Source: Lysobacter sp.
GTDB lineage: Bacteria > Pseudomonadota > Gammaproteobacteria > Xanthomonadales > Xanthomonadaceae
DNA: 64,000 nucleotides
NCBI GenBank assembly: GCA_011526085.1
Contig: WYBC01000030.1
Span: forward strand, 62,001-126,000
Direction: 5' to 3'
Under the pieces are notes generated by a model. It searched no databases. It was not told the origin of the DNA and was given only the letters and a program-made list of their open reading frames with translations. Position numbers and translations under genes: made by a program. Below, piece by piece: positions 5,930 to 33,595 of the stretch (within the stretch, counting starts at the first letter, position 1; each line of letters starts with the position of its first letter).

Positions 5930-5941
5930 GCTTTCCAGACT
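5913..5941 (+). promoter_or_regulatory. Possible sigma-70 promoter of the biotin operon
   Basis: TTGACA at 5913-5918, a 17-bp spacer and CAGACT at 5936-5941 lie 38 bp before the bioB start and overlap the comF start region. The -35 is perfect and the -10 weak. I see no BirA-type operator palindrome here. Confidence 0.35.
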
Positions 5942-5978
5942 GCCTGTCCCTCAAGGACGTGTCCGTCAGGAAACCCCG

Positions 5979-7040: not shown

Positions 7041-7053
7041 TCGAGCACCTGCC

Positions 7054-10781: not shown

Positions 10782-10884
10782 GGGTCGAGGCGAAGACGCG
10801 TCCCGCGGACGGCCCCGCTTGTTGATCGCCGACGGCGTTGGCTATGCTCGCGACAGGCGCTGCACAATCACACGGAGACCCGTC

Positions 10885-16620: not shown

Positions 16621-16643
16621 GGTATAAGCAGGTTGCGTGCCAA
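16621..16643 (-). promoter_or_regulatory. Sigma-54 (-24/-12) promoter for the putative sRNA
   Basis: Minus strand reads TTGGCACGCAACCTGCTTA. The invariant GG (16641-16640) and GC (16629-16628) are 10 bp apart, with the consensus TGGCAC at -24. No enhancer-binding site was identified upstream, where the mnmG leader lies. Confidence 0.6.
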
Positions 16644-16732
16644 CTTTGGTCGCGCACCTGCAAAACGGGCCGACGGCGATACACTTCGATCAGACGCGCG
16701 GCCGCATCGCGACAACCGACAAAAATTTCTGC

Positions 16733-18616
16733 ATGAACGACTTCTACACCTTCGACGTGATCGTGATCGGTGGCGGCCACGCCGGGACCGAGGCCGCGCT
16801 CGCGTCGGCGCGCGCCGGCGCGCGCACGCTACTGTTGACCCACAACATCGAGACCGTGGGCGCGATGAGCTGCAACCCGGCGATCGGCGGCATCGGCAAG
16901 GGCCATCTGGTCAAGGAGATCGATGCGCTCGGCGGGATCATGGCCCGCGCCGCGGATGCGGCCGGCATCCAGTGGCGCCGCCTGAACGCGTCGAAGGGAC
17001 CGGCGGTGCGTGCGACGCGCTGCCAGGCCGACCGTTCGCGGTATCGCAGTTTCATCCGCCGCGCGGTGGAGACCGCGCCGAACCTGACCGTGTTCCAGTC
17101 CGCCGTCGACGACCTCATCCTGGAAGGCGATGCGGTCCGCGGCGCCGTCACCAACACCGGCCTGCGCTTCCGTGCCGGTGCGGTGGTGCTGACCGCCGGC
17201 ACCTTCCTCGCCGGCAAGATCCACATCGGCGAGACCCAGTACGCCGCCGGGCGCATGGGCGATCCGCCGGCGGCCACGCTGGCCGTGCGCCTGCGCGAGC
17301 GCCCGTTCGCCATCGACCGCCTGAAGACCGGCACGCCGCCGCGCATCGACGGCCGCAGTCTCGACTATTCGCGGATGGAAGCGCAGCCCGGCGACGATCC
17401 GCGGCCGGTGTTCTCGTTCATGGGCAGCGCCGCCGATCATCCGCCGCAGGTGCCGTGCTGGATCACGCATACCAGCGAGCGCACCCACGAGATCATCCGC
17501 AACGCGCTGCACCGCTCGCCGCTGTACAGTGGCCAGATCGAAGGTATCGGCCCGCGTTACTGTCCGTCGATCGAAGACAAGGTGGTGCGTTTCGCGGAGA
17601 AGGCCAGTCATCAGATCTTCGTCGAGCCCGAAGGCCTGGACGTGTTCGAGATCTATCCGAACGGCATCTCCACCTCGCTGCCGTTCGACGTGCAGTTCGA
17701 TCTCGTGCGCAGCATCCGCGGTTTCGAGCAGGCGCACATCACCCGCGCCGGCTATGCCATCGAATACGACTTCTTCGATCCGCGCGGGCTGAAGACCTCG
17801 CTGGAGACCAAGCTCGTCGAGGGCCTGTTCTTCGCCGGCCAGATCAACGGCACCACCGGCTACGAGGAAGCGGCGGCGCAGGGCCTGATCGCCGGCCTCA
17901 ACGCGGCGCGCCACGTGCGTGGGCTGGCGGCATGGTCGCCGCGGCGCGACGAGGCCTACATCGGCGTGCTGATCGACGATCTGATCACCCACGGCACCAC
18001 CGAGCCGTATCGCATGTTCACCAGTCGCGCCGAATACCGGCTGCAGCTGCGCGAAGACAACGCCGATCTGCGGCTCACCGGGACCGGCCGCACCCTGGGC
18101 CTGGTCGACGACGCGCGCTGGGCGCGCTTCTCGCGCAAGCGCGATGCGGTCGCGGCCGAGACCGCGCGGCTCGGTGCGGTGTGGGCGGCGCCGAACAACG
18201 CGCTCGGTCGCGAAGCGGTGGCGACGCTGGGCATCGACCTGAGCCGCGAGACGCACGCGCTCGATCTGCTGCGCCGGCCGGAACTCGATTACGCGCGGTT
18301 GATGACCGTGCCGCTGCTGGGCCCGGGCGTCGACGACGCCGATGTCGCCGAGCAGGTCGAGATCGAGGCCAAGTATTCGGGCTATCTCGCCCGCCAGCGC
18401 GAGGAGATCGCGCGCCAGCAGCGCCACGAACACACCGCGATTCCCGCCGACTTCGATTACGCCCTGGTGCGCGGGTTGTCGAACGAGGTGCAGCAGAAGC
18501 TCGCCCGCGTGCGGCCCGAAACCGTCGGCCAGGCGCAGCGCATCCCGGGCATGACGCCGGCGGCGATCTCGCTGCTGCTGGTGCATCTCACCAAACGGCG
18601 CGGTGCGGCGGCCTGA
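16733..18616 (+). CDS. mnmG: tRNA uridine-34 carboxymethylaminomethyl modification enzyme, MnmG subunit
   Basis: 627 residues, full length. FAD-binding partner of MnmE that modifies U34 of several tRNAs. Dinucleotide motif [14 protein letters not shown] at the N-terminus, [24 protein letters not shown], the catalytic-region CW/THT segments, and [18 protein letters not shown]; the C-terminal MnmE-binding helical domain is complete. The ATG at 16733 gives the canonical [15 protein letters not shown] start. Its ribosome site is weak; an upstream in-frame ATG at 16637 would add 32 unrelated residues. Confidence 0.97.
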
Positions 18617-18629
18617 GGCCGTCGCGGGC

Positions 18630-19085
18630 TCAGCCGAACAGGCGATGCAGGGTGCGCTGCATCCAGCCGCCGCTCTGATGATTGCGGCTGAAATGGTCGA
18701 GGTAACGCTTCACCTGTTCGGAATACGCCTTGTCGTCGCTGCGGATGTGGTTGAACAGCCAGCGCGACAGCATCGAGCGCAGCTCATCGGCCACATCCTC
18801 GCCGGCATCGAAGCGCAGCTTGTACTCGTTCACGCGCCGCGTGAACATGTCGTGCACGCGTTTGTGCGCGGCGCAGAACTGATAGCCGGCTTCTTCCATC
18901 AGCTCTTCTTCGAACGCGAAGTGCGACATCGTGTAATCGACGAGCTCGCCGATCGCGTCGGCGATCGCGTCCTGATCGTGGCCGGCCGCGCCGAGCGCAT
19001 TGATCAGATCGACGATCCGTTCGTGTTGCCGGTCGATCACGGCGATGCCGGTGTCGAGTTCCGGTGTCCAGACGAGTGCTTTCAT
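18630..19085 (-). CDS. Bacteriohemerythrin
   Basis: 151 residues. Oxygen- or iron-binding four-helix bundle with the di-iron ligands in place: H21 ([12 protein letters not shown]), H55 and E59 (HFAFEEE), H74 and H78 (HKRVHDMF), then H and D in the [13 protein letters not shown] segment. It starts [11 protein letters not shown], typical of the family. Likely an O2 carrier or sensor, possibly linked to microaerobic metabolism. Convergent with mnmG. Confidence 0.94.
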
Positions 19086-19255
19086 GAGCGATTCCAGCGT
19101 ATGGGTCGTGGTGGTGGCGTACTCTCTCCATCGCGCCGTCGCGACGTCTTGAGCCGAGTCAAAATGCGAGCGACCACACCCGCATGCGCGGGACGAAAAA
19201 CGCGAACCGTGAGGCGTTTCGCGCTTCGTTTCCGCGGTTTCCGGGCGAGATCACG

Positions 19256-19777
19256 ATGCGCCGCATCCTGATCGTGGGGCCCGGCGGCGGCGGCAAATCG
19301 ACCCTGGCCCGACGCATCGCGTCGCGGCTGGATCTGCCGTTGATCCATCTCGATGCCCGCTACTGGCGCCCGGGTTGGGTGGCGCCACCGAAGGACGCCT
19401 GGCGACAAACGGTCGAGCGCCTGACGCAGGGCGAGCGCTGGGTGATGGACGGCAACTACGGCGGCACGCTCGCGCTGCGCCTCGATGCCTGCGACACCGC
19501 GATCCTGATGGACATGCCGCCGCACGTCTGCCTGTGGCGGATCCTGCGGCGGCGCTGGACCCACCGCGGCGTCTCGCGTCCCGACATGGCGCCGGGGTGT
19601 CCGGAGACCATCGACCCGCGGTTCCTGGGGTGGATCGCGCTCTACCGCTGGCGCCATCGTCCGGCGGTGCTCGCCCGATTCGCCGAGGCCGCGGCCATGG
19701 GCAAGCGGACGGTGGTGCTGGATTCGGATGCGGCCGTCGAAGCGTTCCTCGCGGCATTGCCCGCCGCAGGCGGATGA
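19256..19777 (+). CDS. P-loop kinase-like protein (topology-modulation/FlaR-type)
   Basis: 173 residues. Walker A GPGGGGKST right at the N-terminus, then LDLPLIHLDARYWRPGW and WVMDGNYGGTLALRLDACDTAILMDMP, the pattern of adenylate-kinase-like proteins annotated as topology modulation protein or FlaR. The substrate is unknown. The ATG at 19256 places the P-loop at residues 8-16, as in the family; a longer frame upstream adds a basic stretch without homology. Confidence 0.85.
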   Translation: MRRILIVGPGGGGKSTLARRIASRLDLPLIHLDARYWRPGWVAPPKDAWRQTVERLTQGERWVMDGNYGGTLALRLDACDTAILMDMPPHVCLWRILRRRWTHRGVSRPDMAPGCPETIDPRFLGWIALYRWRHRPAVLARFAEAAAMGKRTVVLDSDAAVEAFLAALPAAGG

Positions 19778-19809
19778 TGCGCCCGCGGCGGATGGCGTAC
19801 GCTTGGCGC

Positions 19810-21105
19810 ATGCGCACACGTCTCCGCCCCGCTCTCGTCCTGGTCCTCGCCGCCCTCGCTGGTTGCGGCGAGGAGGTTCCACCGCCCAAGCCGCTGGTCG
19901 CGGGCGATCTGACCATCGAGGCCTGGCCGCTGCCGGCGATGCCCGGTTCGGCGCAGCCCGACCTGGTCGTGGCGCCGGATGGCCGCCTGCTGCTCAGCTG
20001 GATCAACACCCAGCCCGGGCGCAGGCCGGCGTTCCAGTTCGCCGAGTCCTATCCCGACGGCCGCTGGGCCACCGCGCGCACCATCGCGGTCGGCAACTCG
20101 ATGTTCGTGAACTGGGCCGACACGCCGCACATCGCGGCCACGGCCGATCGCGCGCTGTGGGCGCACTGGCTGCAGAAATCCGCGGACGCGCCCTACGCCT
20201 ACGATGTCATGCTGGTGCGGTCGCTCGATCACGGCATGAACTGGAGCGCCCCGCGCAAGGTCCACGACGACGACACCACCACCGAGCACGGCTTCGTCGC
20301 ATTCTGGCCGCAGGGCGACGATGCCCTCGGCGTGGCCTGGCTGGACGGTCGCAACACCGGTGGCGGCGATCACGACGGCCACGGCGACAAGGCCGGCGAA
20401 CACGGCAATGCGTCTCACGGCGAGAGCCGCGGCGGCGCGATGACCGTGCGCGCGGCGGTGTTCGACGCGGCGCTGCGCCCGTCCGCGGCCGCCGAAATCG
20501 ATGCCAGCGCCTGCGATTGCTGCCAGACCGACGCCGCCGCGATCGGAGATGGCGCGCTGCTGGTCTATCGCGACCGCAGCGACAAGGAAATCCGCGACAT
20601 GTATGCCACCCGCTTCGACGGCGAGGCCTGGTCGAAGCCCGTGCGCGTGCACGCCGACGACTGGACCATGCCGGCCTGCCCGGTCAACGGCCCGTCGGTG
20701 GCGGCGAACGGCGATACCGCCGTGGTGGCCTGGTACACCGCGCCGGACGATACGCCGACGGTCAAGCTGGCGCGTTCGACCGATGGCGGCGCGAGTTTCG
20801 GCGCCCCGCTCACGGTGGATCGTGGCGCGGAAGTGCAGGGCCGGGTCGCGGTCGCGAGCGACGCGCGGCAGGTGTGGCTGGTCTGGATGCGCGAGGACGC
20901 AGGCAAGCAGTCGCTGTGGTTGACGCGTTATTCGCCCGACCTCGCGACGGAACTGCAGCGCACCCGGCTCGCCGACGTGCAGGGCAGCGGCCGCGGCACC
21001 GGATTCCCGCGGCTCGCGCTGCGCGGCGACGCCGCGCACGTGGTGTGGACCGATGTCGTCGATGGCCAGCCGCAGTTGCGCGGCATCCGGCTGACGGCGC
21101 GATAG
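19810..21105 (+). CDS. Sialidase-fold (BNR-repeat) lipoprotein with CDCC motif
   Basis: 431 residues. Lipobox LAGCGEE (Cys about residue 18). The mature part carries repeated Asp-box-like strands (SLDHGMNWSAPRKV, STDGGASFGAP, FAESYPDGRWATARTI), suggesting a six-bladed propeller like exo-sialidases. The sialidase arginine triad cannot be confirmed, so enzymatic sialidase activity is not claimed. Two oddities: a His/Asp/Gly-rich insert (GGGDHDGHGDKAGEHGNASH) and an ACDCCQTD cluster that could bind metal. It overlaps nothing and follows the P-loop protein by 32 bp. Confidence 0.78.
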   Translation: MRTRLRPALVLVLAALAGCGEEVPPPKPLVAGDLTIEAWPLPAMPGSAQPDLVVAPDGRLLLSWINTQPGRRPAFQFAESYPDGRWATARTIAVGNSMFVNWADTPHIAATADRALWAHWLQKSADAPYAYDVMLVRSLDHGMNWSAPRKVHDDDTTTEHGFVAFWPQGDDALGVAWLDGRNTGGGDHDGHGDKAGEHGNASHGESRGGAMTVRAAVFDAALRPSAAAEIDASACDCCQTDAAAIGDGALLVYRDRSDKEIRDMYATRFDGEAWSKPVRVHADDWTMPACPVNGPSVAANGDTAVVAWYTAPDDTPTVKLARSTDGGASFGAPLTVDRGAEVQGRVAVASDARQVWLVWMREDAGKQSLWLTRYSPDLATELQRTRLADVQGSGRGTGFPRLALRGDAAHVVWTDVVDGQPQLRGIRLTAR

Positions 21106-21123
21106 CCTTCCCGGCGGCGGTGT

Positions 21124-23025
21124 CTACGCCGCCGCTTCGCAGGCTTCCGCGGCGGCGAGATCGCGCTGGTAGAGCTCGCGCTGCGCCATCGCCTTGTGGA
21201 TCTCGGCGCGATTGAGGTAATGGCTGGCCTCGGCCGGATCCAATGCGATCACCCGATCCATGTCGGCCAGCGCGAGATCGTGGCGACCCGCTTCGAAATG
21301 CAGCACCGCGCGATTGACGCGCGCGGGCAGCAGGTCGGGCGCCAGCGCGATGGCATTGTCGTAGTCGCGCAGCGCGCCTTCGCGGTCGCCCGCTTCTTCG
21401 CGCAACTCGGCGCGCAGCGCATGCACGTCCGGCTGAAGCGGGTTCAGCTCCAGGCTCGCGTCGAAACACGCGATGGCCTCATCCGTCATGCCGAGATTCA
21501 GCGCGCACATGCCCTTGTTGAAATGCACTTCGGGATAGGGCGCGCTGTATTCGACGGCCATGTCGTACATCCGCGCCGCCTCCTCGAAGCGTTCGCCGCG
21601 CTGGAGGATGTTGCCGATCTCGTTGTAGTACTCCGAATAGTGCGGGTCCATCTCGATGGCCTTGTGGTAATAGTCCATCGCCTCGTCGCCGCGACCGAGC
21701 ATGGCGTAGACCTGCGCCGTGTTGTATTGCAGCACCGAGCGATGGAGCATGTGGCGCTCCTCTCCCAGCTCGCGCGTCAACAGGTCGTAACCGGACTGAC
21801 AGAGCGACAGCGCCTCCTCGTGTCTGCCCTGGCGCACCCGGAGGAACGCCAGACCATTGCCGATGAAGACCTTGAGGAAGACGTAGTCCTCGCGCTTGGC
21901 CTCGTCCTCCGCCGCGTCGATGGCGTCCATCGCCGCGAGGATATGATGTTCCGCGCGCGGCAGATCCGGCGTCTTGAGATAGCGCAGATAGGTCATCGAC
22001 AGCAGGTAGTGCATCTTGGCGCGGTATTCGGACAGCACGATGTGCGGCTCCGCGCGTTCCAGCACGATCCGCAGCGCTTCCTCCTCGCGGCCGGTGGTCG
22101 CCAGTCCGGTATAGAAATTGCCGATATAGTCCCAGCGGTTGATCTGATCGTCGCCCATCAGCGCATCGAAATGCGGCAACACGCTGTCGATGAAACTCGA
22201 GGATTCGTGGTAATAGCCGTAATGGTTGTTGATGCACAGCGCGCGCAGCGCCACGCGCGCGGCTTCGATCGTGTCCCCGGTGCGCCGGTAGTGCGCGAGC
22301 AGGGTGGGATAATGGTCCTCCCAGTTCGAGATCCGGTTCGCGCGCAGGGCGTCGTGGATCGCCGCGAGCTCGTCCGCATCGGGCCGTGGCGGCGGCAGCG
22401 GTGACAGGCCCAGGGCTTCGAGCGTCAGTCCGCTGTCGTCGAATCCCAGGCGTGCCGCGGATGTCGCCTGTGCCTGCGTTTGCGTATCCGCATCGACGAG
22501 CACGCCGATGCCGGGTGCGCCGCGTCGCGCGAGTTCGGCGAAGAACCGACGGCCCAGATGCTGGGTCTCGCCGAAGCCTTCGACCACGACCAGCCACGAT
22601 TGCTCCGGCGCGACCAGGCGTTTCCACGCCACGATCATGCCGACCAGGCCGTGGACGAGCCGATAGGCGCGATCCAGCGGATAGTTGCGGGTCCGTTCCG
22701 TACCTCCCGCGAGGTCGGTCAGGTTGGCGTACTTCAGCGGAATCCGCTGGCGGTGCGTCGGCAGCACGCGATTGAGCTCGTAATTGTGCTTCGCGATCAA
22801 CGCATGCTCGCCGCGCGCCTCCAGGTCGAGAAAGGCCGCTTCGACCAGGTCGCGCGCACCGCTCCACGCGCCGCCGCGACTGAAATCGGCGTGGACATGG
22901 AATATGCGGGACTGCGATCCGACCGTCGGCATCGGCGCATGCACGGCGCCGGGCATTCCCGGCTGGGACAGTCGGAACAGCGTCGCCGCGGTGTGCGGCG
23001 CGACGGCATCGTGATCCTGGCGCAT
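21124..23025 (-). CDS. TPR-repeat protein with degenerate NTPase-like N-terminus (peptide/protease locus)
   Basis: 633 residues. Residues ~40-200 contain HVHADFSRGGAWSGARDLVEA and a hydrophobic strand ending in acid, WLVVVEGFGETQHLG, resembling the Walker B of a STAND/NTPase-type module, but no Walker A is visible. From ~residue 280 to the end there is a run of tetratricopeptide repeats (for example YNTAQVYAMLGRGDEAMDYYHKAIEMDPHY, written in part). It starts 10 bp after the stop of the HExxH membrane protein with an AAAGGA site, so the two are cotranscribed. Its role may be partner recruitment for the locus. Function unknown. Confidence 0.82.
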   Translation of the reverse strand: MRQDHDAVAPHTAATLFRLSQPGMPGAVHAPMPTVGSQSRIFHVHADFSRGGAWSGARDLVEAAFLDLEARGEHALIAKHNYELNRVLPTHRQRIPLKYANLTDLAGGTERTRNYPLDRAYRLVHGLVGMIVAWKRLVAPEQSWLVVVEGFGETQHLGRRFFAELARRGAPGIGVLVDADTQTQAQATSAARLGFDDSGLTLEALGLSPLPPPRPDADELAAIHDALRANRISNWEDHYPTLLAHYRRTGDTIEAARVALRALCINNHYGYYHESSSFIDSVLPHFDALMGDDQINRWDYIGNFYTGLATTGREEEALRIVLERAEPHIVLSEYRAKMHYLLSMTYLRYLKTPDLPRAEHHILAAMDAIDAAEDEAKREDYVFLKVFIGNGLAFLRVRQGRHEEALSLCQSGYDLLTRELGEERHMLHRSVLQYNTAQVYAMLGRGDEAMDYYHKAIEMDPHYSEYYNEIGNILQRGERFEEAARMYDMAVEYSAPYPEVHFNKGMCALNLGMTDEAIACFDASLELNPLQPDVHALRAELREEAGDREGALRDYDNAIALAPDLLPARVNRAVLHFEAGRHDLALADMDRVIALDPAEASHYLNRAEIHKAMAQRELYQRDLAAAEACEAAA

Positions 23026-23035
23026 GGGACGTCCT

Positions 23036-24253
23036 TTACGTGCGCTTCGCGCTGATGGCGGGTTTGATCCACATGTACAGACCCGCCAGCAGGATGGCGG
23101 TGGAGATGGTGGCGAAGATCGCGATGTCGATCGCCGCGCTGGCTGGCATGTAGGGGTTGTGGTAAGTCTCCACCGCGCGTTCGAAATAGCGGTAGAGCGT
23201 CGGAATCAGGATCAGCACGAGGAATCCGATCGACGCGATTCGGCCGAGCAGCCAGATCGCGAAGAAGGTCCTCGCGATGATCACCTGCTGCGGCTTGAGG
23301 GGCTCGGTCCGCTTGCCGAGCAGGCCGAAGGAGAAGGCGTGCAGCTGGTTCTGGTAGAAGTGATAGGCCTGCGCGTTGAGATCGGCGTAACCGAAATAAT
23401 TGCAGATGAGGTAGTACACGTCGGTCCGCAGGAAGATGTTGAACTGCCACGTGATCGAGATGGTGATCTGCAGGGCCAGCGCCTGCAGCAGCTGGATCGC
23501 GAATCCGTTCGGGGAATTGGCGAACAGCCACTTGAGGATCAGGGTGATGGCCGCGATGCTGAAAACGTCCACCAGCATGCCCGCGGCCATCGGCAGATAG
23601 CGTTTCTCCCGCGGCAGCGCGAGCAATCCGGTCATGTCCGCTTCCGCCACGATGTCCCACAGCCGGTTGCTGAAGCCGAGGCGCGAATCCACGCCCTGTC
23701 GCGCCGCCGCCAGCATGTGCCCGAGTTCGTGCAGCGACGCGGTGAATGCGTACATGAGCAGCAACACGACGAGAGTGAGCGTGAGATTGCGTTCGAGATA
23801 GAACGCTTCGAGATTCAACCGCAGCTGCGGGTCCTGGATGGCCGAATACGCCGCATAGCCGACGATGCCGAGATAGAGCGCCAGCGATGGCCAGGAGAAC
23901 ACCATCCTGGCGATGCGCGGATTCGCGCGGAAGACCAGGCGCTTGTCGGTGTTGCGTACGGCTTCGACGGATTCCTGGAATCTGTGCCGTTCGGCTTCGG
24001 GATGGATGAACCCGATCTCCAGCAGCGTATCGATGAATTCGCGGACGTCGATCGACTCTTCGGACGTCTGCGCCAGCGTCGTCTCGATCGTCGCGACCGA
24101 TGCCCCGCCCTGCAGCATCCGGATGATGTTCAGTCCTTCTTCCGGGAACTGGTAGAACTCGTCGAGTTCCGCGTTGCCGATGTAGTAGCTTTCGCCTTCC
24201 TTCTGCACGGAAAGAGGAATCACGAAATAGGTTTCGTCCTTGTCGCCGAGCAT
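23036..24253 (-). CDS. Membrane M50-like metalloprotease protein with PqqD-like N-terminal domain
   Basis: 405 residues. Residues 1-85 look like a PqqD/RRE-type winged helix (YYIGNAELDEFYQFPEEG, then IDTLLEIGFI), a domain that in RiPP systems binds leader peptides. The rest has about seven membrane helices. HELGH at residues 175-179 is a zinc-protease HExxH motif at the end of the second helix, and a later AAGMLVDVFS segment is where M50 proteins place the third ligand. Family relatives (YydH-like, DapP-like) act in peptide maturation. AGGAAAGG site before the ATG. It lies between the 37-residue Cys peptide and the TPR gene. Confidence 0.85.
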   Translation of the reverse strand: MLGDKDETYFVIPLSVQKEGESYYIGNAELDEFYQFPEEGLNIIRMLQGGASVATIETTLAQTSEESIDVREFIDTLLEIGFIHPEAERHRFQESVEAVRNTDKRLVFRANPRIARMVFSWPSLALYLGIVGYAAYSAIQDPQLRLNLEAFYLERNLTLTLVVLLLMYAFTASLHELGHMLAAARQGVDSRLGFSNRLWDIVAEADMTGLLALPREKRYLPMAAGMLVDVFSIAAITLILKWLFANSPNGFAIQLLQALALQITISITWQFNIFLRTDVYYLICNYFGYADLNAQAYHFYQNQLHAFSFGLLGKRTEPLKPQQVIIARTFFAIWLLGRIASIGFLVLILIPTLYRYFERAVETYHNPYMPASAAIDIAIFATISTAILLAGLYMWIKPAISAKRT

Positions 24254-24451
24254 GGGGCCTTTCCTGAGACGTGTCCTCGATCCGACATGCGCACGCCGCG
24301 CGTTGGCGCGCGCGCGGTGTGCAGGTTCAACCGAAGGGTTCCATTCTGCCGCGCTGAAACGAACCGCCGCATGCGCGGCGGCTCGGCGGCCCGTTTGCGT
24401 TGCGCCGGACGGGTTCCGTTCGATGCAGCGCGGGTCGCGGGTGGAACGCTA

Positions 24452-24565
24452 TCAGCGATCGATGACCGGGCAGCCCGGGAAATCCGGGAAGCAGCGGCAG
24501 ATCGGATACATCGCGACCGCGGTGGTCTTCAGCTTCTGGACTTTCACGACCGAAATCTTCTTCAT
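24452..24565 (-). CDS. 37-residue Cys-containing peptide, candidate RiPP precursor
   Basis: The gene has an ideal AAGGAGAG ribosome site 7 bp before ATG 24565. The peptide begins MKKISVVKVQKLKTTAVAMY (basic, Cys-free, leader-like) and ends with a compact stretch from residue 20 containing C23, C25 and C32, three prolines in ..FPDFPGCP.. and the end VIDR. It lies 198 bp upstream of, and on the same strand as, the RRE-like/HExxH protein. No double-glycine site and no Sec signal are visible. I do not recognise the family; precursor status is inferred from size, leader-core look and neighbours. The flanks 24254-24451 and 24566-24817 hold no other gene I can support. Confidence 0.7.
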   Translation of the reverse strand: MKKISVVKVQKLKTTAVAMYPICRCFPDFPGCPVIDR

Positions 24566-24817
24566 GAAACTCTCCTTGGTTCGATTGAAGTGCGTTGGTC
24601 GAACGGCACTCTTGCCATCCTGATGGCACGCCAGGCGGCGCAAGGGCCGGCTCTAGGCGGACGGGTCGTGTCGGGAAGTCGCGATGTCCTTGGCGGAGAT
24701 TCGTTCATTCCATGACGAGTGATGCGCCGAGCGCGAACACAGTTAGCACATCGCCGGCAGCGGGCGCAAGGAACGATTGTGCTGCGTCGCACCATCGATG
24801 CGGCCAATCGATTCCGT

Positions 24818-25915
24818 TCAGCCGAGGTGTTCCAGCGCCAGATATTCCGCGCTCTGCATTTCGATCAGGCGCGATGCGGTGCGTTCGAACGCGGCGGCCA
24901 GGCGCTCGCCGCGATACAGCGCGTGCGGTGCGGCATCCGCGCTGCACACGAGATTGACGCGGCGATCGTACAGTTCGTCGATCAGCGTGACGAAGCGACG
25001 CGCGGCGTCGTCGTTCTGCGCGTCGAACGCGGGGATGCCGCCGAGCAGCACGGTGTGGAATTCGGTGGCGATCTCGATGTAGTCGGCGCTGCCGCGCGGA
25101 CCTTCGCACAGTTCGCCGAAATCGAACCACGCCATGCCCTTGGTGCGCGCGCGCACCGCGATGCGGCGGCCGTCGATGTCGATGCCCGCATCGCGGTGGC
25201 CGTCGTCGCCGTGCAGTTCGTGCCAGCGCGATTCCAGCCAGACGTCGCTGTCGGCGTCGAGCGGCGCGCGGTAGACGGGCGAGCGGGTCAACGCGCGCAG
25301 CCGGTAGTCGTTCGGCGAATCGAGATGGACCACGTTGCAGTGGCGTTCGATCAGCGCGATCGCCGGCAGGAAGCGCGCGCGCTGCAGACCGTCCCTGTAG
25401 AGGTCGGAAGGCGCCGCGTTCGAACTGGTGACGAGGATGATGCCTTCTTCGAACAGGCGTTCCAGCAACCGGCCCAGCAGCATCGCGTCGCCGATGTCGC
25501 TGACGAAGAATTCGTCGAGCACCAGCACCCGCAGCGAGGTGCGCCACTCGCGCGCGATCGCCGCCAGCGGATCGCGCTCGCCGGCATGCGCGCGCAGGCG
25601 TTCGTGCACTTCGCGCATGAAGCGATGGAAATGGGTGCGCCGCTTCTCGCGGATCGGCAGCCCGGAATGGAACAGGTCGATCAGGAAGGTCTTGCCACGG
25701 CCGACGCCGCCCCACAGATACAGGCCGTTCGGCGAAGGCGTTACCGGTTTGCCGAACAGCGCGTCGAGCAGGCCCTTGCGCGGCTGCGGTGCGGACAGGA
25801 TCGCATGCAGGCGGTCGAGTTCGCGCAGCGCGCCGTGTTGCGCGGGGTCGTCGTTCCAGTCGCCGCGGGCCACGCCTTCTGCGTAGCGCGCGGATGGCGC
25901 CGCGGCGTCGCTCAT
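24818..25915 (-). CDS. zapE: Cell division protein ZapE (AFG1-type ATPase)
   Basis: 365 residues. Walker A in YLWGGVGRGKTFLIDLF, Walker B in VLVLDEFFVSDIGDA, sensor region LVTSSNAAPSDLYRDGLQR, and the family tail RTKGMAWFDFGELCEGPRG. ZapE is an ATPase recruited late to the Z ring. The ATG at 25915 overlaps the stop of the upstream hydrolase gene (4 bases), so the two are coupled. Confidence 0.94.
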   Translation of the reverse strand: MSDAAAPSARYAEGVARGDWNDDPAQHGALRELDRLHAILSAPQPRKGLLDALFGKPVTPSPNGLYLWGGVGRGKTFLIDLFHSGLPIREKRRTHFHRFMREVHERLRAHAGERDPLAAIAREWRTSLRVLVLDEFFVSDIGDAMLLGRLLERLFEEGIILVTSSNAAPSDLYRDGLQRARFLPAIALIERHCNVVHLDSPNDYRLRALTRSPVYRAPLDADSDVWLESRWHELHGDDGHRDAGIDIDGRRIAVRARTKGMAWFDFGELCEGPRGSADYIEIATEFHTVLLGGIPAFDAQNDDAARRFVTLIDELYDRRVNLVCSADAAPHALYRGERLAAAFERTASRLIEMQSAEYLALEHLG

Positions 25916-26586
25916 GATGCGGTGCCGGTCTCCGGCAGGTGCCGCTGCACGCCGTGCTTGATCGCGCCGCGCAGATCCATGAGTTTGCGATGGAAGAAGT
26001 GGCTGGTCTCGGGCATCCGCACGATCTCGGCCTGCGCGCCGATGCGCTGCAGCCAGTCGTACACCGCCTGCGGGTCGACGATCTCGTCTTCCTCGCCCTG
26101 GATCACCAGCCACGGCATCGTCGGCGTGGCGATGCGTTCGAACTCCCAGCGTCCGGCCGGCGGCGCGATCGACACCAGCATCGCCGGCCGCAGTTCCATC
26201 GCGGCGCGCAGGCTGACGTAGGCGCCGAAGCTGAAGCCGGCGAGCCACAGTGCGGCGTCCGGGCGCGCGGCGCGCACCCAGGCGGCCACCGCGCGCAGAT
26301 CGTCGAGTTCGCCCTCGCCGTGGTCGAACGCGCCTTCGGACCTGCCGACACCGCGGAAATTGAAGCGGACGGTGGCGACGCCGAGCTCGCGCAGGCTGCG
26401 CGCGGCCATCGTCACCACCTTGTTGTGCATGCTGCCGCCTTCGGTGGGCAGCGGGTGGCACAGCACCGCCACCACCGGCACGGCGGCGACGTCGGCTTCG
26501 GGCGGATCGACCGCGACCTCGAGCGCACCCGCCGGTCCCGGCAGGGTCAACACGGTCGCAACGGCGGGGAAGGCGGGCGAGGTCAT
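25912..26586 (-). CDS. Alpha/beta hydrolase (dienelactone-hydrolase-like small esterase)
   Basis: 224 residues. CHPLPTEGGSMHNKVV is the typical oxyanion segment of this short hydrolase family. The nucleophile elbow is GFSFGAYVS, the acid lies in IQGEEDEIVDPQAV and the histidine in PETSHFFHRK. The natural substrate is unknown. Cotranscribed with zapE, 4-base overlap. Confidence 0.88.
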   Translation of the reverse strand: MTSPAFPAVATVLTLPGPAGALEVAVDPPEADVAAVPVVAVLCHPLPTEGGSMHNKVVTMAARSLRELGVATVRFNFRGVGRSEGAFDHGEGELDDLRAVAAWVRAARPDAALWLAGFSFGAYVSLRAAMELRPAMLVSIAPPAGRWEFERIATPTMPWLVIQGEEDEIVDPQAVYDWLQRIGAQAEIVRMPETSHFFHRKLMDLRGAIKHGVQRHLPETGTAS

Positions 26587-26611
26587 GTGGGGATGATAGC
26601 CGCCGGGGCGC

Positions 26612-28336
26612 TCAGGGCCGGCGCAGGCGCAGACCGACCACCAGCGGATCGTGGTCCGAGCTGCGCCAGGGGCCGCGGTCGCCGGGGCGCGTCTGATAGC
26701 CGCGGTTGTCGGGTTCGTCGGCGTTGCTGTGCCATTCCGCCGCGCCGACGAGCCGTGCGGCCAGCCCCGGGCTGAGCAGCGCGTGGTCCAGGCGTCCGGT
26801 CTGGGCATCGTAGACGTAGCTGTACGGGGTTTCGCCATGGGCGCCTTCGAAGGCGTCGCGCCAGCCGGCCGCGACCAGCGCGCGTACCGGGTCTTCCATG
26901 GTGTAGGCATTCAGATCGCCGACGATCATCATCAGATCGCTGCCGCTGCGCGTCGGATCGGTCCGCAGCCAGGCGTCGAGGCGTCGCGCGGATTCGGTGC
27001 GGGTGGGGTTCCAGCAGCTCTGGCCATCCTTCTGGTCGGCCTCGGCGCCGGTCGCGCCGCCGCAGCCTTTCGACTTGAAGTGATTGGCCACCACCGTGAA
27101 CACCGGGCCGTCGCCGGCGCGGAAGCTCTGCGCCAGCGGCGGGCGGCTGCGGCTGCCGAAGAGATCATCGGCCAGCGCGGCGGCGGCGCCGACGGGCTGC
27201 GCACGGGAAGCGCGATAGATCATACCGACCCGGATCTGGTCGCCGCCGGCGGGGGCTTCGCTGGCGATGAACCGCCAGTCGCCGTCGCCGGCCCGGTTCA
27301 GGGCGTCGACCAGCTGCGTAACCGCGGATTCCGGGCCGAATCCGTCGTTCTCCAGCTCCATCAGCGCGGCGATGTCCGGATCCAGGCCGCGGATCGTCGC
27401 GACCAGCCGGCCGAGCTGGGTGTCCAGTTCGGCCTGGGTGCGCGCACCGCGAGGGGTCGGGAACCCGCCGCCGCGGCCGTCGCCGTTGAAGAAGTTCTCC
27501 AGATTGAAGCTGGCGATGCGCACGTCGCCGCCGACCTTCGGTGGCTTCGGTGCCCGCGCGGGCCGGAATTTCGGGGGTGTGGTCGGCATCAGCAGGTAGC
27601 CGCCCCCGCGCTGATCGATCACGCCTTCCAGCCGCACAACCCGGCTGCCGCTGCGAAGATCGGTGTCTTTCGGCAGGAACCACACCGTTTCCGGGCGTTC
27701 CGCGGTGCTGCCGTCGTCCACCCGCAGGGTGCGCCGGGCATTGTCGGCCGCGAAGGCCCGGGCGGCCTCGCCCGGGGCCACGGCGTCGCTGGGCGTACGC
27801 AGCCGTTCGCCGAAATTGACGATCAATTCGCCCTGTTTTTCCAGGCGATGGGTCCCGGCGACGGTCAGCGGCGCGGCGATCCGCACGCGCATGCCCTCAA
27901 GGCGTTCCCAGTCGTTCGGCGCGGTCGCGATCCGGATCGCGCGCGGCATGTCGAGGGCGGCTGTCAGCGGGGCGGGCGATACCCTCTGCAGGGCGGTCAG
28001 CGTGCCGCGCCCGGCGTCGAGTTCGGCGACGGTGCCGCGGATGCGGAGCGATTGACCGACCGCGATCGGCGGTCCGGATGCGCCCTCGGCCTCGATGAAG
28101 ACGGCATCGGAAGTCGCCGCGTCGCCATCGCCGCCGTCCTGCAGATACCAGCCGCGCCGGCCGCCATCGACCGCGGCGGTGACGATGCCCTGCACCGTCA
28201 CCGTCTCGCCGACGCGCGGGCTGCGTTCGCCGGCGCCCTGCACATCGCCGATGCGGAGGGTGTCCTGTGCGGCGCCGGTGGCGGCCCAGATCAGACACAG
28301 CAGCGGCAGGAATCGGAACGGGACGGGTCGGCGCAT
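26612..28336 (-). CDS. Secreted endonuclease/exonuclease/phosphatase-family nuclease
   Basis: 574 residues. Signal peptide (FLPLLCLIWAATGAAQ). Residues ~25-270 hold OB-fold-like strands (TVQGIVTAAVDGGRRGWYLQDGG, IRGTVAEL). The C-terminal EEP domain has SFNLENFFNGDG, AALMELENDGF, NHFKSKG, MMIVGDLNAY and the final SSDHDPL histidine. This layout matches extracellular ExeM/NucH-type nucleases that degrade external DNA. The start at 28336 was chosen for the signal peptide. Confidence 0.9.
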   Translation of the reverse strand: MRRPVPFRFLPLLCLIWAATGAAQDTLRIGDVQGAGERSPRVGETVTVQGIVTAAVDGGRRGWYLQDGGDGDAATSDAVFIEAEGASGPPIAVGQSLRIRGTVAELDAGRGTLTALQRVSPAPLTAALDMPRAIRIATAPNDWERLEGMRVRIAAPLTVAGTHRLEKQGELIVNFGERLRTPSDAVAPGEAARAFAADNARRTLRVDDGSTAERPETVWFLPKDTDLRSGSRVVRLEGVIDQRGGGYLLMPTTPPKFRPARAPKPPKVGGDVRIASFNLENFFNGDGRGGGFPTPRGARTQAELDTQLGRLVATIRGLDPDIAALMELENDGFGPESAVTQLVDALNRAGDGDWRFIASEAPAGGDQIRVGMIYRASRAQPVGAAAALADDLFGSRSRPPLAQSFRAGDGPVFTVVANHFKSKGCGGATGAEADQKDGQSCWNPTRTESARRLDAWLRTDPTRSGSDLMMIVGDLNAYTMEDPVRALVAAGWRDAFEGAHGETPYSYVYDAQTGRLDHALLSPGLAARLVGAAEWHSNADEPDNRGYQTRPGDRGPWRSSDHDPLVVGLRLRRP

Positions 28337-28425
28337 GGGTGGCCCCTGTGACGGAAAGGACAACGCCGCCCGGAGGCGGCGTTGCGGACGTGCTGCGGCG
28401 CTGACGCTGCGGCGCCGGGACCTGA

Positions 28426-28938
28426 TCAGACTTGTTCGAGCATCCAGTCGACCGTGGCCTTGACCTGATCGTCGGTCAGGGCCGGGTTGCCGCCCTTGGC
28501 GGGCATCACGCCGGCGCTGCCGGTGAAGCCTTCGATCGCATGCTTGTACAGCGTGTCCTTGCCCTGGCCGGCGCGGGCGCCGATGCCTGCGGCGTCGAGC
28601 TTCGGCGCGCCGCCGGCGCCCGAGTTGTGGCAGCCCGCGCACAGATTGCCGTAGATCACCGAGCCGTCGAGGGTACCGCCATAGGCGACCTGCGATGCGG
28701 CGGCGGCCTTGGCGGCTTCGTCGGCGGCGGCCTTGGCGGCTTCGCCGCTGGCGCCGGCGTAGACCTGGCCGGTCGGCGCGATGCGGGCTTCGGTGCGCTT
28801 CACCTCGACCGGATTCGCCTGCTCCGGCAGCTCATGGTGGAGGTAGGCCGCGAACAGGATCAGGCCCAGCGTCACCGCCATGAGGAAGGCGATGACCATC
28901 GAAAAGCGCTTCAGAAAGTCCAGATCGTAATTGCGCAC
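28426..28938 (-). CDS. Membrane-anchored cytochrome c5-type protein
   Basis: 170 residues. N-terminal anchor in FLKRFSMVIAFLMAVTLGLILFAAYL, an Ala/Lys linker (AAKAAADEAAKAAAA), then one haem site CAGCH and an axial methionine in GVMPAKGG. Probable periplasmic electron carrier near the terminal oxidases. The GTG at 28938 (VRNYDLDFLKRF) matches the xanthomonad family's usual MRNYDLDFLKRFS start. Divergent from the FNR-family regulator gene. Confidence 0.9.
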   Translation of the reverse strand: MRNYDLDFLKRFSMVIAFLMAVTLGLILFAAYLHHELPEQANPVEVKRTEARIAPTGQVYAGASGEAAKAAADEAAKAAAASQVAYGGTLDGSVIYGNLCAGCHNSGAGGAPKLDAAGIGARAGQGKDTLYKHAIEGFTGSAGVMPAKGGNPALTDDQVKATVDWMLEQV

Positions 28939-28992
28939 GAACTCACCCGGGAACAGAGCATGATGGAACCGCCGCGATGGCGGGACGGCCGG

Positions 28993-29021
28993 TTGAGGCC
29001 GCACAATCCGGGCAGTATAAG
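28993..29021 (+). promoter_or_regulatory. Sigma-70 promoter of the FNR-family gene
   Basis: TTGAGG (28993-28998), 17 bp, TATAAG (29016-29021), about 140 bp before the regulator's start. The minus strand over the same bases reads TATACT, which could serve as -10 for the divergent cytochrome gene. No TTGAT-N4-ATCAA FNR box was found between the two genes. Confidence 0.5.
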
Positions 29022-29166
29022 GGTTGTGACGGCCCGGATTCGAGCCCGGGCACCGCGAAAGCCGCCGGATCGGTCCGGAGGCGGGCGTCGCCGGTCTCCC
29101 GGTGGCGATCTTTAGTACGGAAGTCGGGTTCGGCTTCGCGCCGGCCCGTGGCACACTAGGCGCGCC

Positions 29167-29928
29167 ATGAGCGATTCCTCCGTCCTCGATCTGATCCAAC
29201 TGCGCCGCGGTTGCACCTACTGCTCCGTCCGCCAGCTCTGCCTGCCGGGCGGGATCGGCTCGGACGAACTGCAGCGTCTGGACCAGATCGTGCAGCGCCG
29301 CCGGCCGGTGGCCCGCGGCGAGCGCCTGTTCCGCCTCGGCGATCCGCTGGCCGCGGTCTTCATCGCCCGCGACGGCGCCTTCAAGTCGGTCAGCATCAGC
29401 GAGGACGGCGAAGAGCAGGTGCTCGGCTTCCATCTGCCGGGCGAACTGATCGGTCTGGATGCGCTCGGCAGCGGCCAGCATCGCTGCGAAGGCGTGGCCC
29501 TCACCGCGGCCACGGTCTGCGAAGTGCCCTACGACCAGTTGTCCGAGGTCGCGGCGCAGGTCCCAAGCCTGCAGCAGCAGTTGTTCCGCGTGATCGGCCA
29601 GAGCGTGGATCGCGATCAGGACCATCTCGGCATCCTGGTCCGTCGCCAGGCCAACGAACGCATCGCCCTGTTCCTGCACAGCCTCGGCGAGCGCTATCGC
29701 AACGTCGGCCAGTCCGACCGCTTGTTCCAGTTGCCCATGAGCCGCGAGGACATCGCGCGCTTCCTCGGCCTCGCGCTGGAAACCGTGAGCCGCGGCTTCA
29801 CCCGGCTGCAGGACGACGGCGTCATCGACGTGACCGGGCGTCGTGTCGAAATCTTGAACGTGGCCGAACTTTTGCGGCTCGCCCACGGCGCCGAATCGTC
29901 CGGCGACGGCAAGCAGCGACGCGCCTGA
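29167..29928 (+). CDS. fnr: FNR-family oxygen-responsive transcription regulator
   Basis: 253 residues. N-terminal cysteines C16-x2-C19-x5-C25 (CTYCSVRQLC) plus C107 (QHRCEG) match the four [4Fe-4S] ligands of E. coli FNR. A cyclic-nucleotide-binding fold and a long dimer helix follow. The Crp-type HTH is MSREDIARFLGLALETVSR, whose E..SR contacts recognise the FNR half site TTGAT. It should switch respiratory genes when oxygen falls; the divergent cytochrome c5 gene is a natural target. Confidence 0.93.
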   Translation: MSDSSVLDLIQLRRGCTYCSVRQLCLPGGIGSDELQRLDQIVQRRRPVARGERLFRLGDPLAAVFIARDGAFKSVSISEDGEEQVLGFHLPGELIGLDALGSGQHRCEGVALTAATVCEVPYDQLSEVAAQVPSLQQQLFRVIGQSVDRDQDHLGILVRRQANERIALFLHSLGERYRNVGQSDRLFQLPMSREDIARFLGLALETVSRGFTRLQDDGVIDVTGRRVEILNVAELLRLAHGAESSGDGKQRRA

Positions 29929-29970
29929 CTATCGCCGCTTCGCGCGGCACGTGAAAGCGCATCACAGGCG

Positions 29971-31572
29971 TCAACCCGCGGGATCGACGTCCCGCACGCG
30001 CTCCCAGTCCAGACCGAACCGCGCCAGATACTTGCGCAGCCGGTCGGCGTCGTTGGTGCTGCTGCGACGCGCGCGGGAGGCGGCGAACAGCATGCGCCCC
30101 GCTTCCGACAGCGATTTCGCCCGCGCGCAGACGCGCACCGCATCTTCGAGCTGCACCCGATCGAAGCGATCGAGCGACGCCGCCTCGTCGCCGAGCAGCG
30201 CGTCCAGCAGCGTTCCGCCGTCGTGGGTGCGCCACAGCGCACGCAGCCGCGCGATTTCCTCGTCCACCAGCGCCACCTGGATGCGCCCGGCATCGGCCAG
30301 CGTCGCCATCCGCATCACCGAGGCGCCGAGGTCGCGGAAATTGCCGCGCCATCGCGCATCGGCGCTGGTGGCGAAGCGCAGATAGCGCGTCCGCGCTTCG
30401 CGGTTGAAGGCCACGCGCTGCCCTTGTTCGCGCGACCAGCGTTCGAGTTCGAAATCGAGGTTGGGTTCGATGTCTTCCGGGCGTTCGGCCAGGCCCGGCA
30501 GGCGATAGGTCCACAGATTCAACCGTGCCAGCAGGTCGTCGCGGAAGCGTCCGCGTGCCACCGCGTCCTGCAGATCGCGGTTGGTGCCGGCGATCAGCTG
30601 GAAATCGCTCTCCACGTCCTTGTCGCCGCCCACCGGCGGGAAGCGCTTCTCTTCCAGCGCGCGCAGCAGCAGCGCCTGCTCGTCCAGGCCGAGTTCGCCG
30701 ATCTCGTCGAGGAACAACAGCCCGCGATCCGCGGAGCGCAGCAGTCCGGCGCGATCGCTGCCGGCGCCGGTGTAGGCGCCTTTCACGTGGCCGAACAGCG
30801 CGCTCATCGCGCCGTCGCCGCGCAGCGTGGCGCAGTTCACTTCGACGAAACGTCCCGGCAATTGATGCTTGAGTTTCTTCAGCTCGAACACGCGCTTCGC
30901 CAGTTGGCTCTTGCCCGCGCCGGTCGGGCCCATCAGCAGCATCGGCGCCTTCGAACGCGTGGCCACGGTTTCGATCTGTTCGATCATCCGGTTGAACGCG
31001 GCGTTGCGGGTGGCGATGCCGCTTTTCAGCAGATCGCGGTCTTCCAGCCGCTGCTGCGCGAAACGCTGCGCGATGCGGTCGTAGCGCGAGAGATCCAGAT
31101 CGATGATCGCGAAGCTGCCGGGATCGCCGCCGCCCTGCTTGCGCGGTGGCGAGGTCTGCAGCAGGCGGCCCGGAAAATGGCGGCTCTCCGCGAGCAGGAA
31201 CCAGCAGATCTGCGCGACATGGCTGCCGGTGGTGATGTGGATGTAGTAGTCCTCGTCCTCCGGGCGGAACTCGTAGCCGCGCAGGAAATCGTGCAGCGTC
31301 GCGTACACGCCCTCGAAATCCCACGGGTCGGCGAGGTAGGTGTCGTGCCGGCGCACCGCGGTGTCGGGCGAGATCTGCGCGAAGTCGTCCTGCACGATCC
31401 GCGCGAGCTTGCCGTAGCGGCGCTCGTCCACCAGCAGTTCCAACTGGTCCACGAGGAAGTCCTCGTGCTGGCCCAGCGAGACCGTGGGCCGCCATTTTTC
31501 CCACCGCCCGGGACCGCCGCCGGCATCCAGCTGGGTGCCGAGCATGCCGAAGATGACCTGACGCCTGCGCAT
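29971..31572 (-). CDS. rtcR: RtcR, sigma-54 activator of the RNA-repair operon
   Basis: 533 residues. The N-terminal ~170 residues form the CARF-type RtcR domain (VIFGMLGTQLDAGG, YYIHITTGSHVAQICWFLLAE). The AAA+ domain has Walker A LLMGPTGAGKSQLAK, the sigma-54 loop GAYTGA (GAFTGA variant) and Walker B RGLLFLDEIGEL; a C-terminal helical DNA-binding region ends the protein. RtcR is thought to be activated by RNA fragments with modified ends binding the CARF domain. Divergent from rsr, whose promoter is of -24/-12 type. Confidence 0.95.
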   Translation of the reverse strand: MRRRQVIFGMLGTQLDAGGGPGRWEKWRPTVSLGQHEDFLVDQLELLVDERRYGKLARIVQDDFAQISPDTAVRRHDTYLADPWDFEGVYATLHDFLRGYEFRPEDEDYYIHITTGSHVAQICWFLLAESRHFPGRLLQTSPPRKQGGGDPGSFAIIDLDLSRYDRIAQRFAQQRLEDRDLLKSGIATRNAAFNRMIEQIETVATRSKAPMLLMGPTGAGKSQLAKRVFELKKLKHQLPGRFVEVNCATLRGDGAMSALFGHVKGAYTGAGSDRAGLLRSADRGLLFLDEIGELGLDEQALLLRALEEKRFPPVGGDKDVESDFQLIAGTNRDLQDAVARGRFRDDLLARLNLWTYRLPGLAERPEDIEPNLDFELERWSREQGQRVAFNREARTRYLRFATSADARWRGNFRDLGASVMRMATLADAGRIQVALVDEEIARLRALWRTHDGGTLLDALLGDEAASLDRFDRVQLEDAVRVCARAKSLSEAGRMLFAASRARRSSTNDADRLRKYLARFGLDWERVRDVDPAG

Positions 31573-31634
31573 GATCGAATCCGATAAGAAACGATCCAAA
31601 TATATATGAAATACCGCACAGCGACGCGGGCGGA

Positions 31635-31690
31635 AATCCATGAAATCCGAATAAATACCTTTGAAAACAATGGATTGATTCAATTCGGAT
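31635..31690. promoter_or_regulatory. Candidate RtcR upstream activating sites
   Basis: In the AT-rich rtcR-rsr gap two interleaved inverted repeats are visible: AATCCAT (31635-31641) with ATGGATT (31670-31676), and ATCCGAA (31645-31651) with TTCGGAT (31684-31690). They end 5 bp upstream of the -24 element, so they are close for enhancer sites; binding is inferred from position only. Confidence 0.4.
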
Positions 31691-31694
31691 GAGG

Positions 31695-31711
31695 TTGGCA
31701 CGGCGATTGCA
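31695..31711 (+). promoter_or_regulatory. Sigma-54 promoter of the rsr-Y RNA-rtcBA operon
   Basis: TTGGCAC-N5-TTGCA: GG at 31697-31698 and GC at 31709-31710, 10 bp apart, a near-perfect consensus. Transcription should start near 31722, 35 bp before the rsr ATG. It pairs logically with divergent rtcR. Confidence 0.88.
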
Positions 31712-31756
31712 ATGCATGGGGCAAACCGGAACGGGCATTCCCGACAGGACGACACC

Positions 31757-33456: not shown

Positions 33457-33595
33457 CTGTCGATGATCGCGAATGCTTTGGGAACTACAGACTCTTAATC
33501 TCCAGGTCGCGGGTTCGAGTCCCGCCCGTCGAAAGACGGTAGCTCAGTCGGATAGAGCGGGACGTTCCCTCACTTCTTGTCGCGGTCATCGGCAG
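33457..33595 (+). ncRNA. Y RNA-like RNA 2 with permuted tRNA module (YrlA-like)
   Basis: A 16-bp outer stem (33457-33472 with 33580-33595, two G-U pairs), an internal loop, then GGGAAC/GTTCCC (33480-33485, 33564-33569). Inside, tRNA parts occur in permuted order: anticodon-like hairpin AGACTCTTAATCT (33489-33501, loop like tRNA-Lys CUU), T arm GCGGG-TTCGAGT-CCCGC (33509-33525), acceptor-like stem CCGTC/GACGG closed by GAAA (33526-33539), D arm GCTC/GAGC (33542-33558). The GCGAATGC and CTTCTTGTCGC Y-stem strings recur as in RNA 1. No free acceptor end exists, so it cannot be charged as a normal tRNA. Confidence 0.85.

Follow-up and report, generated by a model that had tools for sequence, protein, structure and literature searches.

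In daptides, the enzyme removing the leader is an intramembrane peptidase that depends on a RiPP recognition element (RRE; RiPP, ribosomally synthesized and post-translationally modified peptide), as stated in a portion of the daptide report (PMC10036551); according to excerpts of a second paper, M50 proteases also act on the precursors of pearlins and epipeptides (PMC10885120). In this work, a stretch of 64,000 nucleotides from Lysobacter sp. (contig WYBC01000030.1, positions 62,001 to 126,000; hereafter the window) was analyzed for a three-gene locus encoding a short peptide, a membrane protein with a predicted RRE and an M50 protease domain, and a tetratricopeptide repeat (TPR) protein. The data gathered suggest that this trio is probably an undescribed, minimal, and mobile RiPP-type cassette, in which the leader of the peptide would bind the RRE, the protease would free the core, and the TPR protein would be their partner.

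The three genes are read on the minus strand, in the order peptide gene, RRE-M50 gene, and TPR gene, from the sequence and its open reading frames (ORFs):

24452..24565, minus strand: peptide gene, 37 codons, precursor-like; leader of residues 1-15 ending in Lys-Thr-Thr, core of residues 16-37.
24254..24451, minus strand: gap between the peptide and M50 genes, 198 bp, possible attenuator.
23036..24253, minus strand: RRE-M50 gene (protein P0002), 405 amino acids; predicted RRE/PqqD fold at about residues 9-88, then a membrane zinc-protease domain.
21124..23025, minus strand: TPR partner gene (protein P0003), 633 amino acids; N-domain read as degenerate AAA_16-like, lacking a P-loop and followed by a TPR superhelix.
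21109..24817, no strand: insert, the same-genus genome G061 lacking the entire stretch between its AFG1-like and BNR-like genes.

An earlier note on the same DNA had pointed out these genes, and its description of them stands: the Cys peptide (24565-24452) has Cys at positions 23, 25, and 32, a Cys-free basic leader, and a good ribosome site; the membrane protein (24253-23036) carries HELGH at residues 175-179; and the TPR gene lies 10 bp past the M50 stop, its product matching TPR_1 in five stretches (Pfam E 1.2e-30). The gap between the first two genes contains a GC-rich hairpin and then a T-rich stretch (24382-24366); terminator-like sites in this gap number two versus a shuffle mean of 2.1, and the folding signal is weak (z -1.7).

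Distribution and co-inheritance of the trio

At the family level (198 genomes), strong M50 matches (E < 1e-40) came from three genomes (that of the window, G173, and G189) and weak ones from four others. TPR matches at E <= 1e-20 were retrieved from the same three genomes among 396 relatives, at most three candidates per genome being scored among the matches listed, so that misses are possible. The M50 matches of G013, G030, G176, and G022 were classed as other M50 proteins and dropped, with no convincing TPR gene or leader peptide in 3.4-3.6 kb, as were the class-level matches G587 and G683 (open frames of 718 and 738 amino acids). P0002 alone retrieved nothing from a collection of 84,980 species genomes; a profile built on four M50 sequences retrieved 54 named loci from it, in a scan keyed on two short exact patterns by which members can be missed. 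These loci span Pseudomonadota, Myxococcota, Cyanobacteriota, Chloroflexota, Bacillota, and Actinomycetota; moreover, one lies in a metagenome-assembled genome labelled Woesearchaeota.

A strict pattern written for the leader matched 75 times at 1.15-2.3 kb ahead of the M50 stop, across 52 of the 54 loci, with six further matches lying farther upstream within the L047, L068, and L075 arrays; the rest of the 846 kb, read on both strands, had no match, nor did any of five block-shuffled sets. The leader peptide is lacking, by this pattern, in L067 and L071. The TPR gene adjoins the M50 gene in 50 loci; as for the remaining four, L041 and L051 meet a contig end about 2 kb past the M50 gene, and L067 and L071 have none. 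The M50-TPR gap ranges from -14 to +142 bp in the 50 loci measured and is -4 in 13, the starts having been picked by a rule favouring -4.

The phylogenies of the two proteins (L067 and L071 being left out) agree with each other: over 40 shared rows, the M50 and TPR trees have 31 of 37 splits in common, with a Mantel rho of 0.93 that none of 2000 permutations equalled. Furthermore, three leader types (QKLKTT, ET(V/L)(K/R)TT, and RLT/KLT) each make up one clade of a 43-row M50 tree built by a quick method, with two changes in total; the ET..TT clade gathers Myxococcota, Cyanobacteriota, Chloroflexota, Bacillota, and two Pseudomonadota. The three genes form a unit that is inherited together. The TPR protein, which the earlier note had taken as a following gene, has to be seen differently, being nearly as constant as the peptide and having a tree congruent with that of the M50 protein. 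Clustering of the neighbours across the loci revealed no further constant gene.

The locus also appears to move. The AFG1-like and BNR-like genes, which enclose the 3.7-kb trio in the window, are separated by 32 bp in G061; the window flanks match L087 up to positions 1191 and 1224 of the latter. In G013, at the same site (L084 7779-10154), 2.4 kb of other sequence separates the AFG1-like and BNR-like genes, and for this reason the insertion site may be a hotspot; the other two of the four same-genus genomes examined there, G115 and G137, showed no BNR-like gene within the extracted stretch. Since nothing besides the trio was recognized in the insert, the cassette looks self-contained. The window and G189 (L028) belong to one genus and fall in different M50 clades, pointing to an outside origin of at least one of the two sets. 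The cassette seems rare: with a profile of the TPR N-domain, one of 398 genomes across the phylum matched, the window's own, at most five candidates per genome being scored among the matches listed.

Properties of the peptide and of its partner proteins

The window peptide, MKKISVVKVQKLKTTAVAMYPICRCFPDFPGCPVIDR, has AAGGAGAG ahead of its ATG and a core (residues 16-37), AYPIWLCLPWWPQL, with Y20, C23, C25, and C32; its gene has no other match at E <= 10 anywhere in its own genome. Short ORFs with the same start stand upstream in the relatives G173 (MKKISILKVQKLKTTSVAAYPIWFCLPWPRL) and G189 (MKKFAIREVETVKTTAALYECRACFPDWFCDWIDMAA), and a Streptomyces plasmid (L019) has the same gene order, with a peptide ending in MRKISVRRTEPIKVTSAPFSHQPAIVPV; in this plasmid the trio (7300-11368) is set among transposase genes, and the peptide is N-extended. 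Altogether, 84 peptides were compared, 74 of them distinct (the window's and 83 from 54 loci, namely 52 of L023-L076, L008, and L019). They are 25-40 residues long from the conserved start, the N-terminus being longer in a few loci (in L072-L074 the conserved part begins inside a longer frame, and in L019 there is the N-terminal extension).

The leader is made up of 15 basic, alternating residues (for instance, MKKIxVRKxxxVRLT or MKKISxxKVQKLKTT), with Thr at position 15 in all 74 distinct peptides, Cys in none of them, and the least variable positions at 2-4, 7, and 13-15; entropy is lower in the leader than in the core. The cores are variable, of 10-25 residues, and contain Cys in 73 of 74 cases (exactly one in 48). 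A Tyr followed by a Cys within seven residues (Y.{0,6}C) occurs in 72 of the 74 distinct cores, versus a mean of 34.6 and a maximum of 49 in 2000 trials of per-core shuffling, a figure that is no probability, the rows being related by kinship; the pair is present in all 15 distinct cores of the Thr-Thr type, drawn from five phyla. Peptide genes can be repeated in tandem, with ten copies in L047 and six each in L044, L068, and L075, and the cores differ within these arrays. In Nostoc (L029), three identical 29-residue peptides (7186, 7422, and 7657) lie in tandem upstream of the M50 gene, each start being preceded by 18 near-identical bases.

The earlier note had read the peptide as a precursor and had named three outcomes that would speak against this: M50 homologues without a short peptide nearby, no RRE score, and no conservation of the 37-codon frame. 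All three were looked into and none refuted the reading, which is supported: the peptide is present in 52 of the 54 loci, and the frame is conserved in relatives, above all in the leader.

Concerning the M50 protein, its RRE-like N-terminus, also proposed earlier, was recovered by a profile of 45 sequences and by the AlphaFold model, whereas plain Pfam left it under the cut-off. The set comprised P0002 and 44 of 55 sequences; those left out were mostly near-copies, plus L019, and L025 was kept out on account of its broken M50 frame. In the latter (Sphingomonas oligophenolica, 7788-9216), this frame is in two pieces in different frames, and those of the peptide and TPR protein are open. Searched against the sequences of the Protein Data Bank, the profile had its two best matches on the N-terminal part, to TfuB1 (E 0.0039) and TbiB1 (E 0.053); on the HExxH helix it matched RseP (E 0.24) and an archaeal site-2 protease (S2P; E 0.55), other chains following from 0.7 up. 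The model (predicted local distance difference test, pLDDT, 90.8; predicted template-modelling score, pTM, 0.86) was compared with Foldseek, where TigE, TfuB1 with leader, TbiB1 with leader, and MccB came first (probability 0.97-1.00, E 0.08-0.3), McbBCD next (probability 0.87), and unrelated channel proteins (probability < 0.1) were mixed in. Profile and model together point to the N-terminus being an RRE. At E <= 0.1, Pfam matched M50 in 19 and PqqD in 9 of the 45 members. The catalytic part is intact: H175, E176, H179, and D278, the last presumably the third metal ligand, as in S2P proteases, are invariant in 45 of 45 sequences, and HExxH lies in a membrane helix (hydropathy segment 157-175, model helix 157-185).

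The TPR partner was analyzed on a set of 42 sequences (P0003 and 41 of 51, those left out being mostly near-copies and also L019) and, for its N-domain, on 21 of 52. Conserved motifs occur at the N-terminus of the 42-row alignment (RLRGPYT, ETLTSLA..ERTR, and LVV...AD.TD.EFLA.L.RR.DP in Actinomycetota). Nine of the 21 N-domains match AAA_16 in Pfam (best E 3.4e-5), the window's own being unmatched, and no P-loop (GxxxxGK[ST]) was found in the first 200 residues of the 51 relatives or of the window protein. The window protein shows no strongly hydrophobic segment and no helix-turn-helix (HTH) or other DNA-binding domain among the 25 Pfam matches listed. In its AlphaFold model (pLDDT 90.8, pTM 0.90), the strand/helix order of the N-terminal part can be read as RecA-like, ahead of a long TPR superhelix; the best 50 Foldseek matches listed are mainly TPR proteins. 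Taken together, the partner is read as a STAND-like protein that has degenerated and would not bind ATP and, therefore, as a candidate scaffold, chaperone, or receptor.

As for additional genes, the earlier statement that no radical SAM, YcaO, LanB/M, or ABC transporter gene is near agrees with the ten neighbour ORFs scanned with Pfam in the window (16637-31899), which are all of other kinds and include no flavin-reductase-like or TfuA gene either. Candidate chemistry is added by relatives in Actinomycetota. A flavin-reductase-like ORF, missed by the neighbour clustering and found by eye and by profile, occurs in 24 of the 54 loci, all Actinomycetota (after the TPR gene in 22, before the peptide in two), and three were confirmed by Pfam (PF01613). 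In L074 (Actinoplanes-type), genes for YcaO, TfuA, and a B12-binding radical SAM protein lie upstream on the same strand (Pfam), and L072 and L073 have look-alike ORFs, as judged by eye. Seven loci of Micromonospora, Streptomyces, Actinacidiphila, and Lentzea (L046, L054, L055, L056, L058, L069, and L076) share further neighbours around the trio, among them an AAA_16-LuxR regulator in L046 (Pfam), and are perhaps part of a larger mobile neighbourhood.

Elsewhere in the window, a gene for an RtcR-type sigma-54 regulator (29971-31899, minus strand; PF06956 E 1.5e-77 in Pfam) lies near a YrlA Y-RNA-like gene (33466-33589, plus strand), which is just over its gathering score; the two are perhaps an RNA-repair locus. 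The Xanthomonadaceae small RNAs asX1 and sX13 are also present, at Rfam gathering scores.

Proposed mode of action and alternative explanations

On these grounds, we can depict the following putative route. The ribosome would make a precursor of 25-40 residues, whose 15-residue basic leader would dock on the N-terminal RRE of the membrane protein; next, this protein would act as an M50 intramembrane protease and cut near the leader/core junction (Thr-Ser-Ala-Ala or Lys-Thr-Thr), freeing a core of 10-25 residues with its Tyr...Cys pair and perhaps also releasing it across the membrane. The TPR protein would be the constant partner of the protease, as a scaffold, chaperone, or receptor for the precursor or the product, and in some Actinomycetota tailoring genes (flavin-reductase-like, or YcaO/TfuA/radical SAM) would have been added. 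Docking and cleavage fit the locus because it holds a basic leader of fixed length and, in the neighbouring gene, a predicted RRE and intact protease residues. A bolder version, to which we assign a small chance, would make the trio a RiPP class with a two-protein machinery, the Tyr...Cys pair being joined or modified without a known maturase and the TPR protein being a new modifying enzyme or scaffold.

Several observations weigh against the cassette proposed here. The leader pattern was written after viewing the same loci and, thus, measures specificity rather than providing an independent test; the loci themselves were collected via the M50 protein, and many are close kin. L067 and L071 have the M50 gene without peptide or TPR gene, and, conversely, L079 (Nonomuraea, 5812-7650) has a shorter TPR homologue (open frame of about 612 codons) with no M50 match or leader peptide in 12.4 kb. 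The core of the Streptomyces plasmid lacks Cys, and this N-extended peptide may be in decay. The window M50 protein stays below the curated Pfam cut-offs, with E 0.00061 for M50 and 0.11 for PqqD (PF05402); moreover, Foldseek gave no match at E <= 0.001 for its model and no M50 or S2P structure among the best 50 matches listed. Lastly, neither a modification enzyme nor a transporter was recognized in the ten window neighbours or, by clustering, as constant across the loci, and the term "post-translationally modified" is therefore unproven for these peptides.

The main rival is a signalling cassette, where the M50 protein would mature a peptide sensed by the TPR protein, the peptide being a signal and not a natural product; we give it a modest chance, and it is compatible with RRE-guided cleavage. 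Gram-positive pheromone systems rely on Eep-type proteases and TPR receptors. Here, too, the constant genes are those of a peptide, a protease, and a TPR protein, the N-domain of the last is STAND-like (even if degenerate), and no maturase was found to be universal; however, a DNA-binding domain is missing from the Pfam matches listed for the window TPR protein, clustering revealed no other gene that is constant, and the tandem arrays with differing cores (L044, L047, L068, and L075), together with the YcaO/TfuA/radical SAM genes of L074, look more like product genes. A defence or toxin module, in which a STAND-like protein and a protease would switch on a small toxic peptide when a phage attacks, appears very improbable to us. 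It would share with STAND proteins the AAA_16-TPR architecture and would agree with the patchy, rare distribution and with the insertion at one site, but PADLOC gave no specific match in six proteins (weak generic ones falling in the TPR region only), no relative was found in viral contigs (with one pattern) or phage records, and the P-loop is absent, as detailed above.

It would be equally surprising if the M50 protein were a housekeeping regulatory protease of the RseP type and the short ORF an unrelated translated leader or chance frame. Such a view can draw on the weak RseP and archaeal S2P matches, on the weak Pfam score of the RRE, and on part of an ungapped codon comparison of 14 relative pairs, in which non-synonymous changes exceed synonymous ones in the leader region (residues 1-18) in three pairs (window-L008, window-L023, and L055-L054). 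In the same comparison, nevertheless, synonymous changes prevail in the leader region in nine pairs (two showing no change), and non-synonymous ones prevail in the rest of the peptide in 12. Moreover, the leader is conserved in six phyla and specific in its place, and the neighbouring protein has a predicted RRE fold; the specificity of the leader and the agreement of its type with the M50 tree already contradict the housekeeping protease.

If the RiPP-type cassette is the right reading, the trio may represent a previously undescribed route to small peptides, in a cross-phylum, horizontally moving family with loci that searches keyed to known maturases would miss. Its precursors have 25-40 codons, the RRE and M50 scores are below threshold, and the neighbours carry the annotations "hypothetical" and "TPR" in one annotated relative. 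The near-universal Tyr...Cys pair in otherwise variable cores poses a clear chemical question, and it would be unusual for such a locus to include a constant TPR partner of the STAND-like kind. With its three genes in 3.7 kb, the unit is simple to transfer to a laboratory host, which makes leader binding, cleavage, and product directly testable.

Comparison with known peptide systems

In NCBIfam, the six peptides tested belong to no family, and the proteins tested received sub-threshold or generic names. No description of the trio was found in the literature searched, either by terms or by the leader strings, which returned one unrelated virus paper; the words M50 and TPR are absent, by word search, from the main texts of PMC12710340 and PMC7470986.

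A receptor of the RRNPP type (HTH and TPR) was rejected, no HTH appearing among the 25 Pfam matches listed and the N-domain being AAA_16-like in nine of 21 relatives. In the profile search, the lasso peptide B1 RREs (TfuB1 and TbiB1) are the closest solved relatives of the M50 N-domain, and in the structural comparison they belong to the closest; they are separate proteins in the solved structures, whereas the window RRE is fused to the M50 domain. A lasso locus was excluded, no B2 transglutaminase-like protease or C cyclase being present in the ten window neighbours (Pfam). M50 cousins with PqqD-like N-termini occur in the ThiF and M50 operons of Streptomyces, Nonomuraea, and Actinophytocola (L020-L022 and L071), which may be another peptide system; there, a ThiF-like E1 (with a PqqD-like N-terminus, as judged by eye) directly precedes the M50 gene, instead of a TPR gene following it, and no such leader peptide was found. 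An operon of this kind lies elsewhere on the L079 replicon.

Pearlins likewise have M50 membrane proteases (TglG and TmoG) acting on a ribosomal peptide (PMC10885120); in pearlins a modified residue is cut from the C-terminus, whereas the whole variable core would be freed here, and no pearlin-type gene was recognized in the neighbours scanned. Epipeptides (EpeX/YydF, with the M50 protein EpeP/YydH) also are small peptides matured with an M50 protease, according to the same excerpts (PMC10885120). In the epipeptide family NF058609, P0002 has no match and a Nostoc relative reaches 12.4 bits against a cut-off of 225; an epipeptide identity was discarded on this score, with no radical SAM gene in the ten window neighbours and with an RRE and a TPR protein instead.

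A further likeness is with daptides (MpaP; PMC10036551), where precursor ORFs, often several, stand beside an RRE fused N-terminally to an intramembrane site-2 protease, as in the loci studied here. The differences are nonetheless extensive. P0002 is a weak match to the daptide family NF041824 (24.4 bits against a cut-off of 300); the leader motif ELExMEAP and the invariant C-terminal Thr are absent, none of the 74 distinct peptides ending in Thr or holding ELE; and decarboxylase, aminotransferase, methyltransferase, and DUF-RRE genes are missing from the ten window neighbours (Pfam, which a DUF-RRE could escape), daptide-type partner genes not being constant in relatives by clustering either. 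As score, leader motif, C-terminal Thr, and partner enzymes all failed, a daptide locus was rejected. The window trio has a TPR protein instead of these enzymes; by analogy, the protease step of the trio may be like the removal of the daptide leader.

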